A stretch of DNA of 64,000 nt from Nymphaea colorata. Lineage: Eukaryota; Streptophyta; Magnoliopsida; Nymphaeales; Nymphaeaceae. The first letter of the stretch is position 1. Each line of letters begins with the position of its first letter. The position numbers and the translations under genes were made by a program. Location: contig NC_045138.2 in assembly GCF_008831285.2 (NCBI RefSeq), positions 21,671,934-21,735,933 on the forward strand, in the 5' to 3' direction. The notes below the pieces were generated by a model. That model was not told the origin of the DNA. It did no database searches and saw nothing but the letters and a program-made list of their open reading frames with translations. Below, piece after piece: positions 36,613 through 40,455 of this stretch.

Positions 36613-36982
36613 GGAACACTAAAACTAAGTGTCTATAGATCAGGACAAGTTTATGAAACATTCACAATGTAACACCCTAGAAGTTTAGTCTCGTATCGAA
36701 GATTGTGAAGGATTTTCAATGGCTTATAAAGGGAGGCCATTAATGAGATGATTGTCCTGGTTCCTAGCCTTTTTTAGCATTGGAACCGAAACTGCTAGGA
36801 ACACTAAAACTAAGTGTCTATAGATCAGGACAAGTTTATGGAACATTCACAATGTAACACCCTAGAAGTTTAGTATCGTATCGAAGATTGTGAGGGATTT
36901 TCAATGGCTTATAAAGGGAGGTCATTAATGAGATGATTGTCCTGGTTCCTAGCCTTTTTTAGGATTGAAACCGAAATTGCTA
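36613..36982. repeat. 185-bp tandem duplication spanning host flank and TRIM LTR start
   Basis: The unit starting ggaacactaaaactaag at 36613 recurs at 36798, offset 185, and both copies end …gctagg. Each unit holds about 55 bases of host flank followed by about 130 bases of the TRIM LTR beginning TGTAACACC (36668 and 36853). Because the unit includes LTR sequence, the duplication must postdate TRIM insertion. Confidence 0.92.
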
Positions 36983-37044
36983 GGGGGTGGGTTAGGATCC
37001 GTCGAACCAGGGGCCCGAGCCCGGGAGTGGGTCGGGTTGTTACA
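36853..37044 (+). mobile_element. TRIM 5' LTR (192 bp)
   Basis: It starts TGTAACACC and ends GGTTGTTACA, so it has TG…CA ends with short inverted termini. It is preceded by CACAA (36848-36852), which recurs directly after the 3' LTR at 38924-38928 as a 5-bp target-site duplication. The primer-binding site follows immediately. The LTR is far shorter than in autonomous elements. Confidence 0.92.
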
Positions 37045-37120
37045 GTGGTATCAGAGCAGTTTCAACACTCGGATCTTGGGTCCCACACGCGCGGACGCGT
37101 GTGCCTTAAGGGGGGTGGAT
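37045..37120 (+). mobile_element. TRIM internal domain: PBS and PPT only, 76 bp
   Basis: 37046-37057 is TGGTATCAGAGC, complementary to the 3' end of initiator tRNA-Met and the standard plant retrotransposon primer-binding site. 37109-37119 (agggggggtgg-like, purine-rich) is the polypurine tract, directly abutting the 3' LTR start at 37121. No coding sequence lies between, so the element is non-autonomous and depends on another element for mobilisation. Confidence 0.92.
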
Positions 37121-38923
37121 TGTAACACCAAGGGCTGCACACGAGCCGAGTCAAGCTCGAGCTTGCCCAGCTCGAGCTCGACTCGGCTCACAGAGCTCGA
37201 GCTCGAACTCGAGTCGAGCTCCCTGACACAAGCTCGAGCTCGACTCGATTATACAGAGTCGAGCTTGAACTCGACTCCCTTAACTCGATTAACTCGAGTA
37301 TGTCTTGTTTCTCTAAACTTGAAACGTACAAGGCGACAAGAAACCTGGAAATGAATGGAATTAAGGGAAGGATCACCGGTTCTTCCATGCGCCATTGAAG
37401 CAAATGATTCATCCACTTCTTCCTCAAGCAGCGTCGTCCTATCTCTTAGCTCCAGCAAGCTCCACGAGGCATCCTGCCAAACATCTTCATCATCTTCACA
37501 TACATATCTACATACAGACGCACACACATAGACACACAGTCCCACACACAGAGGTGCCTCACCTGGAACAGGGGAAAAAGAGAAGCGAGGAAGCCAGCGG
37601 CAAAGAAGAGGGAGCAGAGGATGAAAACAAGCGGTAGACCCACATGCCTCCCGCAGTTTTGAGAGGAAGCCACCTTGCCCTTCACTTTCATCTCTCTCTG
37701 ACCTTCTTCTTCTCAGGCAGCACAGCAATTCGGCCTATCTTCCAGTATACTAACACAAGCTAATCAGAGACAGAGATAACTAAGGAATATCCCTGCACAA
37801 AGCTAAAGAAAATTGGCAGTTCCCTCTGTCACCGCTCTTCCTTGCCCGTGAAAGCCGCCTCTTTGATTCGTTTGGCTTACCTTCCAAAGGAGGCTTACCT
37901 TCCAAACCCCGAACAACCAAAATCAGAGAAACGAAGTGGAGATGGGGTGAAAGAGGGGAAGTGAAACGATCTTACCTGTGAAGAAATACGATCGACCAAC
38001 GGGCTTTGTGATGAGAAGAGAATCGAAGGAGCTTCAAAAGAACACTAGGGTTTCAGGGAAAGCCCACCACCTCCGTCTCGACATTCACCTGCGAAAAAAG
38101 CCCAAAACGTGTATGGCAAAGCTTCAAAAGAACCCTAGGGTTTCAGGGAAAGGCGAGAAGAGAGCCTAACCAGTATAATGGCCGAACTCTGCCGAATGGA
38201 TGGTGGTGGTCATGGCGCGTGCGGCGGTGAGTTGGTGTGGGTGGTAGAGAGGAGAGAGAGCGGCAGTGAGTCGGTGCGGTCATGGGCCCTCAGCGTTGAT
38301 AGACCCTCAACGAGGGTTCTCTGAAACCCTCATCGTTGAGAGACCCTCAACGAGGGTTCTCTGAAACCCTCGTTCAAGAGGGTTTCTTTGGAAGCCTCGT
38401 TGAGGGCTTTAGAGGGTTGAGAGACCCTGAGAGAGAGAGAAAAAAGGAGGGAGAAGTCGAAACGGCAATGTTAAAAATGTAAACGTAATAAACAAAAACC
38501 TAAATCGGTGAATCGGTAGCCCAGTGAACCGGTTCATATAATTAAGCTAAACGATTTTCAACAATCGAAACGAGTCGCGCATAAACGAGTCTAGTTCTTA
38601 CAACTCGAACTCAACTCGTTTAATGTTTCGAGTATATGCTTAAACTCAAACTCGACTCGTTTATAAACAAGCGGAGCTCGAGTCGAGTTTTTCTGAGCAA
38701 GTTCGAGTCGAGCCCGAGTTTGCTCGACTCGTTGTGCAGCCCTAGTAACACCCCAGAAGTTTAGTCTTGTATCGAAGATTGTGAGGGATCTTCAAGGGCT
38801 TATAAAGGGAGGCCATTAATGAGATGATTGTCCTAGTTCTTAGCCTTTTTTAGGATCTTCAAGGGGTGGGTTGGGATCCGTCGAACCAGGGGCTCGAGCT
38901 TGGGAGTGGGTCGGGTTGTTACA
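37121..38923 (+). mobile_element. TRIM 3' LTR, split by a hAT-like element
   Basis: The LTR begins TGTAACACC at 37121-37129, is interrupted by the insertion 37130-38744 plus its 8-bp duplication, and resumes at 38753 (ccagaagtttagtcttg) to end TTGTTACA at 38923. Counting the target once, it is about 180 bp. A deletion of about 12 bases relative to the 5' LTR lies near 38863 (taggatcttcaagg against taggattgaaaccg…). CACAA at 38924-38928 completes the target-site duplication of the whole TRIM. Confidence 0.9.
37130..38744. mobile_element. 1.6-kb hAT-like non-autonomous element nested in the TRIM LTR
   Basis: Terminal inverted repeats are aagggctgcacacgag at the left and ctcgttgtgcagccct(a) at the right (TAGGGCTGCACAACGAG when complemented). 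They are flanked by a perfect 8-bp target duplication GTAACACC (37122-37129 and 38745-38752). Subterminal regions are dense in ctcgagctcgactcg words in both orientations. The interior has no transposase. It contains an approximate 40-bp direct repeat (38301 and 38341, agaccctcaacgagggttct). Eight-base duplication and a YAGGG terminus point to the hAT superfamily; the autonomous partner is not identified. Confidence 0.88.
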
Positions 38924-40455
38924 CACAAAGACTTTTTTGGATGGTGGTTCACAAAGATATCTCATTTCGGTCAAGTTAGACCTAACCAATTATTGTCCCT
39001 AGCACTCCCAACTTAAATTAGTCAGGTTTGCTCAAGATCTTATGAAGTATGTGGGTGGATCTTCAGAGCCTCCACTAGAGTTCATTACTAGGCATGGGCA
39101 TCAGGCCAGGCCCCAATAATTTTGTGTTGGTAATTACTGGCCCCAAATCGGGGCTACCCACTATTGTCGAGCTGGATACCGGGCCGTGACAAGTATATCC
39201 AAGTTCCGGCCCAGACCATTTTTAACCCATTAAATGGGTCGGATAGGGCTGGATGGGCCCTACTTTAAAAATCAAGAGATGTTTCGTTGTTTCTTTGTTA
39301 ACCTATCATGGATAGACTTTCAAGTTGGATAGTATACAAATTCACTACAAAGAATTCCAGTTTAGTCAGGTATTCAAATGCATTATGTCGCCAATGTTCA
39401 AATAGAAATCATACATAATGATTTGGGACATGAGACCAAACACAATGCCATTAGGTTATAAAATAATTTGTTTTTCTAGGATCTTGCTAGTTAACATCCC
39501 TTCACCTACTTGGAACTCATGTTGATGATCAAGTAAAGAAAGTAGGAAGCATATTACCACAGTTTCAGAAAAATGTAAAATAAGAACCAAAGAAATGTGT
39601 CTACTCCCGTGTAACATATAAATAACATAAAATTGCAAATCCTTAGGCAATAGTTGCAAATCCTAATGCTTGTCAGCAATAAGAATGTGATTTTAAGGGT
39701 TCTGAATTTATCATATGGTATGGAGTCTAATATATGCAACATTGATCAAATTTGCAGTGTAGGAATCATAATTGAAGCTCATGGAAGCAGTTTTAATATG
39801 ATGGTACACATTGCAAAACTTAAAACTACATAAAGTAATAAACATAACATGTTATAGTTTAAAGATTCCATCTAGATAACATGCTATCAACAGTCTAATT
39901 CATATAGAACATCAACATTCCAAGAGTTGTACATATCCCAAATAACATGCTATCAAGAGTTGTACTCCATATAGTTTTACATATGCGAGAGTTCCAACAT
40001 TTTTTCATATGCAGGAGTTTTAACACGTAATAATTTAATATGAAGACTTCTTCCATTTCATAGAAATCACTCACAAGTTCATACGCGATTCCACTTCTTG
40101 AAAGATATTACCTACAATCAATAGTTAATTCACAAATTACATAAATAAAATGCTAAACACTACAAATTGAAAAAGTTTTACCATGGTAATCATGCATTGG
40201 ATCAGCATTCTTTATCAGAATTTGGCCCTTCATCATGAAAACTGCAACAAATATCAGTGTAAGCATACTATTATGTTAACATATAAAACCAATTAGATTG
40301 AACTATAAACATTTACATTTTAAACAATTTTCGTTTATTATGAATCCAGCTCTACGTGCAAATTAATGCTTCAAAATTTTCAAAAGCGGTTAAGCATCAC
40401 AAGTTCATTCGCGATTCTGCTTCATGAAAGATATTACAAAGATTGCTAATACATC

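Follow-up and report, generated by a model that had tools for sequence, protein, structure and literature searches.

A high-copy TRIM family of Nymphaea colorata with a putative U6-like promoter of RNA polymerase III in its long terminal repeats

Introduction

Some terminal-repeat retrotransposons in miniature (TRIMs) of plants carry a promoter of RNA polymerase III (pol III) in their long terminal repeats (LTRs). In Cassandra, this promoter is internal and derived from 5S genes (type 1). According to the accessible parts of two papers, both ends of the Cassandra RNA lie within its 5S segments and carry 18-bp repeats (PMC10886601), and Cassandra mirrors promoter changes of its host (PMC10853983). 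In Helenus and Ajax, which belong to TRIMp3, the LTR promoters are derived from transfer RNA (tRNA) genes (type 2) or from 5S genes; the available text of the TRIMp3 description deals with internal promoters of the 5S and tRNA kinds and raises 7SL as a speculation (Kojima 2024, PMC10886601). Maize Wukong, in the part of its description available, has 230-bp LTRs, a 72-bp interior, 5-bp target site duplications (TSDs), elements with 3–7 LTRs and nested insertions (PMC4528315). The word "promoter" is absent from the main text of that paper, and Wukong is compared here by its description and not by its sequence. We analysed a stretch of 64,000 nt of Nymphaea colorata NC_045138.2 (the window, C1:21671934-21735933), which contains a TRIM nested with a transposon of the hAT type and a tandem duplication.

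The TRIM of the window shares short LTRs, a short interior, 5-bp TSDs, elements with more than two LTRs and nested insertions with Wukong. It is similar to Cassandra in its tandem arrays and in its putative pol III promoter in the LTR, and the short end repeat predicted for its RNA parallels that of Cassandra RNA. It is similar to Helenus and Ajax in its 5-bp TSDs, which these have in plants, and in a putative LTR promoter of the small-RNA-gene type. Unlike the promoters of these families, the putative promoter here is external (type 3) and consists of an upstream sequence element (USE) and a TATA box. No 5S was found in the LTR (at gathering thresholds, the single Rfam match in the window is the tRNA at 59233), and no tRNA-derived segment was found in it (Rfam and a tRNA search at default thresholds). 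Judged by the sequence features tested, the family is a TRIM, and it is neither Cassandra nor Helenus at the thresholds used. We consider it likely that the core of the nest is one old member of a high-copy TRIM family, with a gene-external (type 3) pol III promoter of the plant small nuclear RNA (snRNA) type in its LTR.

Results

The N. colorata genome (407,766,735 bases in 783 contigs) was searched with the LTR and with the interior of the TRIM. The family is large: the LTR gave 942 first-look places, of which 40 were scored with 78 matches listed, and the interior gave 527 first-look places, of which 40 were scored. From 30 extracted loci we obtained 54 LTR matches; 49 were near full length, and 40 of these were distinct. 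These 40 copies are the best-scoring and hence the youngest. In the LTR, TTTAGTCCYGTATCG is followed after 26 bp by TATAA[A/T], then after about 23 nt by ATGATTG, and after about 15 nt more by a run of five or six T (T5-6). The USE (AGTCCYGTATCG / GTCCYGTATCG) is exact in 34 of the 40 distinct copies, and its gap to TATAA[A/T] is 26 bp in all 40. The distance from the end of the motif to the G of ATGATTG could be scored in 37 of the 40 copies and is 54 nt (22 copies), 55 nt (14) or 56 nt (1). The T5-6 run begins 30–40 nt past the TATA box in 39 of 40 copies; relative to the predicted start, the run lies 14–16 nt downstream. In the 5' LTR of the window, comparison with U6 genes places the USE (AGTATCGTATCG, two changes from AGTCCYGTATCG) at 36872-36883 (+); the other two copies in the window, with one change each, are at 36687-36698 and 38763-38774 (+). 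TATAAA stands 26 bp past the USE at 36910-36915 (+), with further copies at 36725-36730 and 38801-38806. By U6 spacing, the pol III start is predicted at the G of ATGATTG at 36939 (+), 55 nt past the USE, and in the 3' LTR at 38830 (+). The T6 run at 36955-36960 (+) is a candidate weak pol III terminator, and a matching T6 run is located at 38846-38851 (+) in the 3' LTR.

We compared this layout with the U6 genes of the host. Rfam reported 48 U6 matches in the genome, of which five score 111–113 bits, well clear of the next one at 82. In all five top genes, AGTCCYGTA is located exactly at -66, and the end of the motif is 54 nt away from +1. The motif was absent in 25 of 25 lower-scoring loci examined (of 43 others). 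The gap between USE and TATA in the five U6 genes is 24–28, measured to the TATA-like hexamer that fits best (L031 has a tie, and in L035 this hexamer is TATGAA). The plant USE is given as RTCCCACATCG in the available part of the literature source (PMC9845283), and the host U6 genes and the TRIM LTR depart from it identically. Thus, the LTR shares with the host U6 genes the USE variant, the gap class and the start distance. The ends differ: the U6 genes end in T7-T9, whereas the run in the LTR is T5-6 and is followed by no known structural RNA. Among 350,185 extracted bases, a USE with a TATA box at a gap of 26 occurred outside the TRIM LTRs only twice, both times in U6 genes.

The same source states that the plant USE sits one helical turn nearer to TATA in snRNA genes of pol III than in those of RNA polymerase II (pol II) (PMC9845283). 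As a pol II control, U2 was tried and set aside: family and DNA searches gave mostly U2-like fragments, and patterns with preset gap ranges were used instead. None of 12 U2-like loci had AGTCCYGTA upstream, with one loose match, AGTTTCGTAATA, at -91; one further locus of the U2 search, L066, has exact USEs. The pattern of a USE and a TATA box separated by 33–39 gave 94 matches, against 2 for the reversed control. When sorted, 47 of these rows were one dispersed repeat, 43 (40 sites) were diverse and mostly clustered, and 4 were others. Eight of the 40 diverse sites were read; they are U1 (140 bits), U4 (two), U5 (two) and U2-like (three), with gaps of 33–35, and the three U2-like sites were not reported by Rfam at E up to 0.1. 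The pattern with a gap of 24–28, with the TRIM core and the dispersed repeat excluded, gave 23 matches, against 0 for the reversed control. The spacer marks 8 of them as TRIM variants, which leaves 15 non-TRIM matches; the gap measures 26 in 20 of the 23 and 25 in the other 3. Nine of the 15 non-TRIM matches were read and comprise U3 (108 bits), U6atac (92 bits), 7SL three times (69, 56 and 28 bits; these are fragments cut short, below the gathering score of 105), a snoR114-like match (27.5 bits, under the gathering score of 45) and three without assignment. Plant_U3 and Plant_SRP are among the Rfam models matched, in keeping with a plant nuclear genome. The host U3, 7SL and U6atac genes have the same USE variant and gap class as the LTR.

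Judged on these sequences, the LTR gap of 26 is within the pol III class of this genome (24–28) and outside its pol II class (33–35). This bears on the possibility that the USE and TATA promoter is real and that the TRIM is nevertheless transcribed by pol II, as in canonical LTR retrotransposons. It is true that TATAAAGGG is a good pol II TATA, that the early T-run would hinder pol III, and that type 3 pol III promoters also have pol II activity in human cells, according to the accessible text of PMC6023835. However, all 40 copies have a gap of 26, which belongs to the pol III class, and we regard transcription by pol II as rather unlikely.

Some other loci with a USE were seen in these searches. 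The dispersed repeat that makes up 47 of the 94 rows of the 33–39 pattern is about 400 bp long, with GGTGCGGGTGC-like ends (for example, L089 at C14:6230300, L090 at C11:1063800 and L091 at C12:22301340). It contains USE-26-TATAATATAT, so it also has a layout of the U6 type. L100 (C6:24311815), L101 (C10:5341421) and similar rows are repeat-like putative RNA genes with USE-26-TATA, GTGGGAGACCTC and a T-run further on; no convincing Rfam match was found at loci of this type. At L106 (C7:16116700-16116950), USE-26-TATAAA is followed by a long hairpin, with weak matches to microRNA models on both strands.

Other members of the family have the order LTR-interior-LTR and a period close to 266 bp, and the primer binding site (PBS) and the polypurine tract (PPT) are likewise found in them. 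The LTR length is mostly 188–192 bp, and the interiors are 95–100% identical among the 40 scored of 527 places. We looked for TSDs in rows with a recognisable terminus and set aside 11 rows without a recognisable end, including the tandem units on C3 and one three-LTR element. Other copies share the ends of the window element, a point that the earlier note on this DNA had proposed to check by a genome search with LTR and interior; a perfect 5-bp TSD was found in 13 of 19 rows. When the right ends were shuffled 2000 times, only 3 shuffles reached at least 5 TSD matches. The six misses include two 5' LTRs that the script left unpaired with their 3' LTR, one of which belongs to the window's own element. 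Three elements of this comparison have three LTRs. The LTR terminus is TATA in 16 of 19 rows and TACA in 3, including the window copy; in other words, in 16 of 19 rows the LTRs are TG...TA and not the canonical TG...CA, and the window copy is TG...CA. At C3:26775242-26779517 there is a larger tandem array, with five copies of TRIM and flank spaced 958 bp. The exact LTR-PBS pattern had 0 matches in viral contigs. A hairpin in the interior was considered and rejected, as folding was no better than in shuffles (z -0.50).

The structure of the nest was read directly from the letters and with a repeat search. The 5' LTR (192 bp, TGTAACACC...TTGTTACA; its boundaries agree with family members) occupies 36853-37044 (+), and the 76-bp interior, also seen in genomic copies, occupies 37045-37120 (+). 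The interior contains the PBS TGGTATCAGAGC at 37046-37057 (+), whose primer we take to be the initiator Met tRNA, and the PPT AAGGGGGGTGGAT at 37108-37120 (+). The first 9 bases of the 3' LTR (TGTAACACC) are at 37121-37129 (+) and its remainder at 38745-38923 (+). Between them lies an insert of 1615 bp at 37130-38744 (no strand assigned), with the 8-bp TSD GTAACACC at 37122-37129 and 38745-38752 (+). The TRIM is flanked by CACAA at 36848-36852 and 38924-38928 (+), and the left CACAA is itself doubled by the tandem duplication (second copy at 36663-36667). Unit 1 of this duplication, 36613-36797 (+), consists of 55 bp of flank and LTR bases 1-130; it differs from unit 2, 36798-36982 (+), at 7 of 185 positions, with GG common at the junction. 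These readings bear out the three-layer nest proposed in the earlier note, which had described LTRs of about 190 bp, CACAA duplications on both sides, a hAT-like element of 1615 bp splitting the 3' LTR between 8-bp duplications, and a 185-bp tandem duplication of host flank and LTR start. The note was also right about the presence of PBS and PPT but not about their separation by 76 bp, which is the length of the entire interior; their spacing is about 50 bp. Without the insert, the element is about 450 bp long. Two short LTRs (in the 100–250 bp range), small total size, PBS, PPT, 5-bp TSD and an interior of just 76 bp, with no coding capacity, are all features of a TRIM. It is not an "extreme TRIM", as had been claimed, since Wukong, Helenus-1_SMo (120-bp LTRs and an 85-bp interior in the accessible text of PMC10886601) and FRetro129 (292 bp in total in that of PMC3281118) have comparably small or smaller interiors or totals.

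The relative order of events also fits the one proposed, with the TRIM first and the hAT insertion, which sits in its 3' LTR, and the tandem duplication afterwards. The two LTRs differ at 17 of 180 aligned sites (14 transitions and 3 transversions) and by a 12-bp gap, which gives a Kimura two-parameter distance (K2P) of 0.103. Plant substitution rates are 0.7–1.3e-8 per site per year. The alignment of the LTR pair, suggested earlier as a means of dating, therefore puts the TRIM insertion at roughly 4–7 million years at these rates, for which this lineage offers no calibration. The TRIM probably predates the tandem duplication, because the tandem units differ at 7 of 185 sites, against 17 of 180 for the LTR pair (Fisher p 0.035); with the LTR portion of the units alone, the comparison is 6 of 130 against 17 of 180 (p 0.13). 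After its insertion, the window copy would thus have been interrupted by the hAT transposon and rearranged by a tandem duplication at short homology.

The nest in itself is ordinary. It could be that the whole locus is an ordinary TRIM nest with an ordinary TATA promoter, in which the match to the USE is a relic or functionless. Every structural layer would agree with this, and TRIM arrays and nested insertions are already known, according to the available text of PMC4528315 and PMC4717578. The motif also lacks excess conservation: a sign of selection was sought in the 40 copies, and the minor-letter frequency is 0.037 in the USE and TATA columns, against 0.029 in the rest of the LTR. However, this explanation leaves unaccounted for a 12-base USE that matches the host's and whose distances to TATA and to the start are exactly those of U6. 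Moreover, the 20-base form of the USE, a pattern chosen after the LTR and U6 had been seen, occurs in the window at up to 3 mismatches only in the three LTR copies, with 0.02 expected. We therefore consider a functionless match improbable.

The insert is, by its sequence features, a non-autonomous hAT transposon, because it has an 8-bp TSD and short terminal inverted repeats (TIRs; AAGGGCTGCACA / TAGGGCTGCACA) and belongs to a multi-copy family with shared ends. A search with the insert gave 2162 first-look candidates, of which 40 were scored and 123 matches listed. Among the matches listed, 25 others stop precisely at base 1615 and 20 begin at base 2; the middle (about 193-939) is also present at two further places of the list, C3:24032971 and C9:15494981. 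No transposase was found: the long frame 37249-37734 has no Pfam match, in a search that covered that one frame. In its 8-bp TSD, short TIRs and high copy number the insert is like other non-autonomous hAT transposons, and no difference from them was found. Elsewhere in the window, a remnant of a hAT dimerisation domain lies at 40456-40872 (-) (Pfam 3.4e-05), and an end sequence related to the end of the insert lies at 41812-41866. The window also contains an open frame of 924 aa for a lectin receptor-like kinase (29339-32113, -; domains B_lectin, S_locus_glycop and protein kinase) and a tRNA-Pro (CGG) gene (59233-59305, +).

Discussion

The type 3 promoter that we propose for the LTR would act as follows. 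USE-binding factors and TBP would recruit pol III, and transcription would begin in the 5' LTR, with the G of ATGATTG as its first base. The polymerase would often read past the weak T5-6 run 14–16 nt downstream, cross the PBS and the PPT, and stop at the matching T-run in the 3' LTR. The product would be an RNA of about 286 nt whose two ends share a repeat of about 20 nt. Being weaker than the T7-T9 of U6, the T5-6 run would permit the read-through of the first LTR that is needed. The predicted transcript has two runs of at least four T in 17 of 18 distinct units, by position one per LTR. The RNA may then be reverse transcribed from the tRNA primer and integrated by enzymes that an autonomous element supplies in trans; PBS, PPT and 5-bp TSDs suggest that such a partner carries out reverse transcription and integration of the ordinary LTR type. 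It is also possible that weak termination at T5 gives read-through RNAs that feed three-LTR arrays.

Several observations weigh against a type 3 promoter. The T5-6 run is not only weaker than the ends of the five U6 genes but also comes early in the 5' LTR, and the predicted transcript is not depleted of T-runs (1.94 runs of at least four T, against 2.07 in shuffles). The context of TATAAAGGG resembles that of a pol II TATA, the motif is no better conserved than the rest of the LTR, and the autonomous partner is presumed. The U3, 7SL and U6atac genes, as well as U1, U4 and U5, were found with preset gap ranges, therefore for them only gene identity and not the gap is tested; the U6 gap was not preselected. 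The case for pol III is built on sequence and spacing in one genome.

In the open-licence literature, we found no LTR element with a USE or a promoter of the U6 type, and no paper pairing GTCCCACATCG with retrotransposons. In the accessible text of a large TRIM survey, promoter, snRNA and TATA are each mentioned 0 times (PMC4717578). The family described here has the mark of TRIMp3, a putative pol III promoter in the LTR, as judged from sequence and spacing (USE-26-TATA). On balance, we lean, with some reserve, towards regarding it as the first LTR retrotransposon family driven by a type 3 U6-like promoter, with an RNA of about 286 nt, that tracks the lineage-specific USE of its host.

If this is true, the family would stand beside Cassandra (type 1) and Helenus (type 2) as their counterpart of type 3, and the idea of TRIMp3 would be widened from 5S and tRNA promoters to a third class of pol III promoters. 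The transcription of TRIMs beyond Cassandra has been little examined, and a U6-type promoter that matches that of the host makes this question testable. Because the USE of the host departs from the textbook form, the family is a candidate for promoter co-evolution. The genome would then contain many dispersed U6-like promoters, judging by the first-look LTR places, which would be relevant to the annotation of small RNAs in N. colorata.

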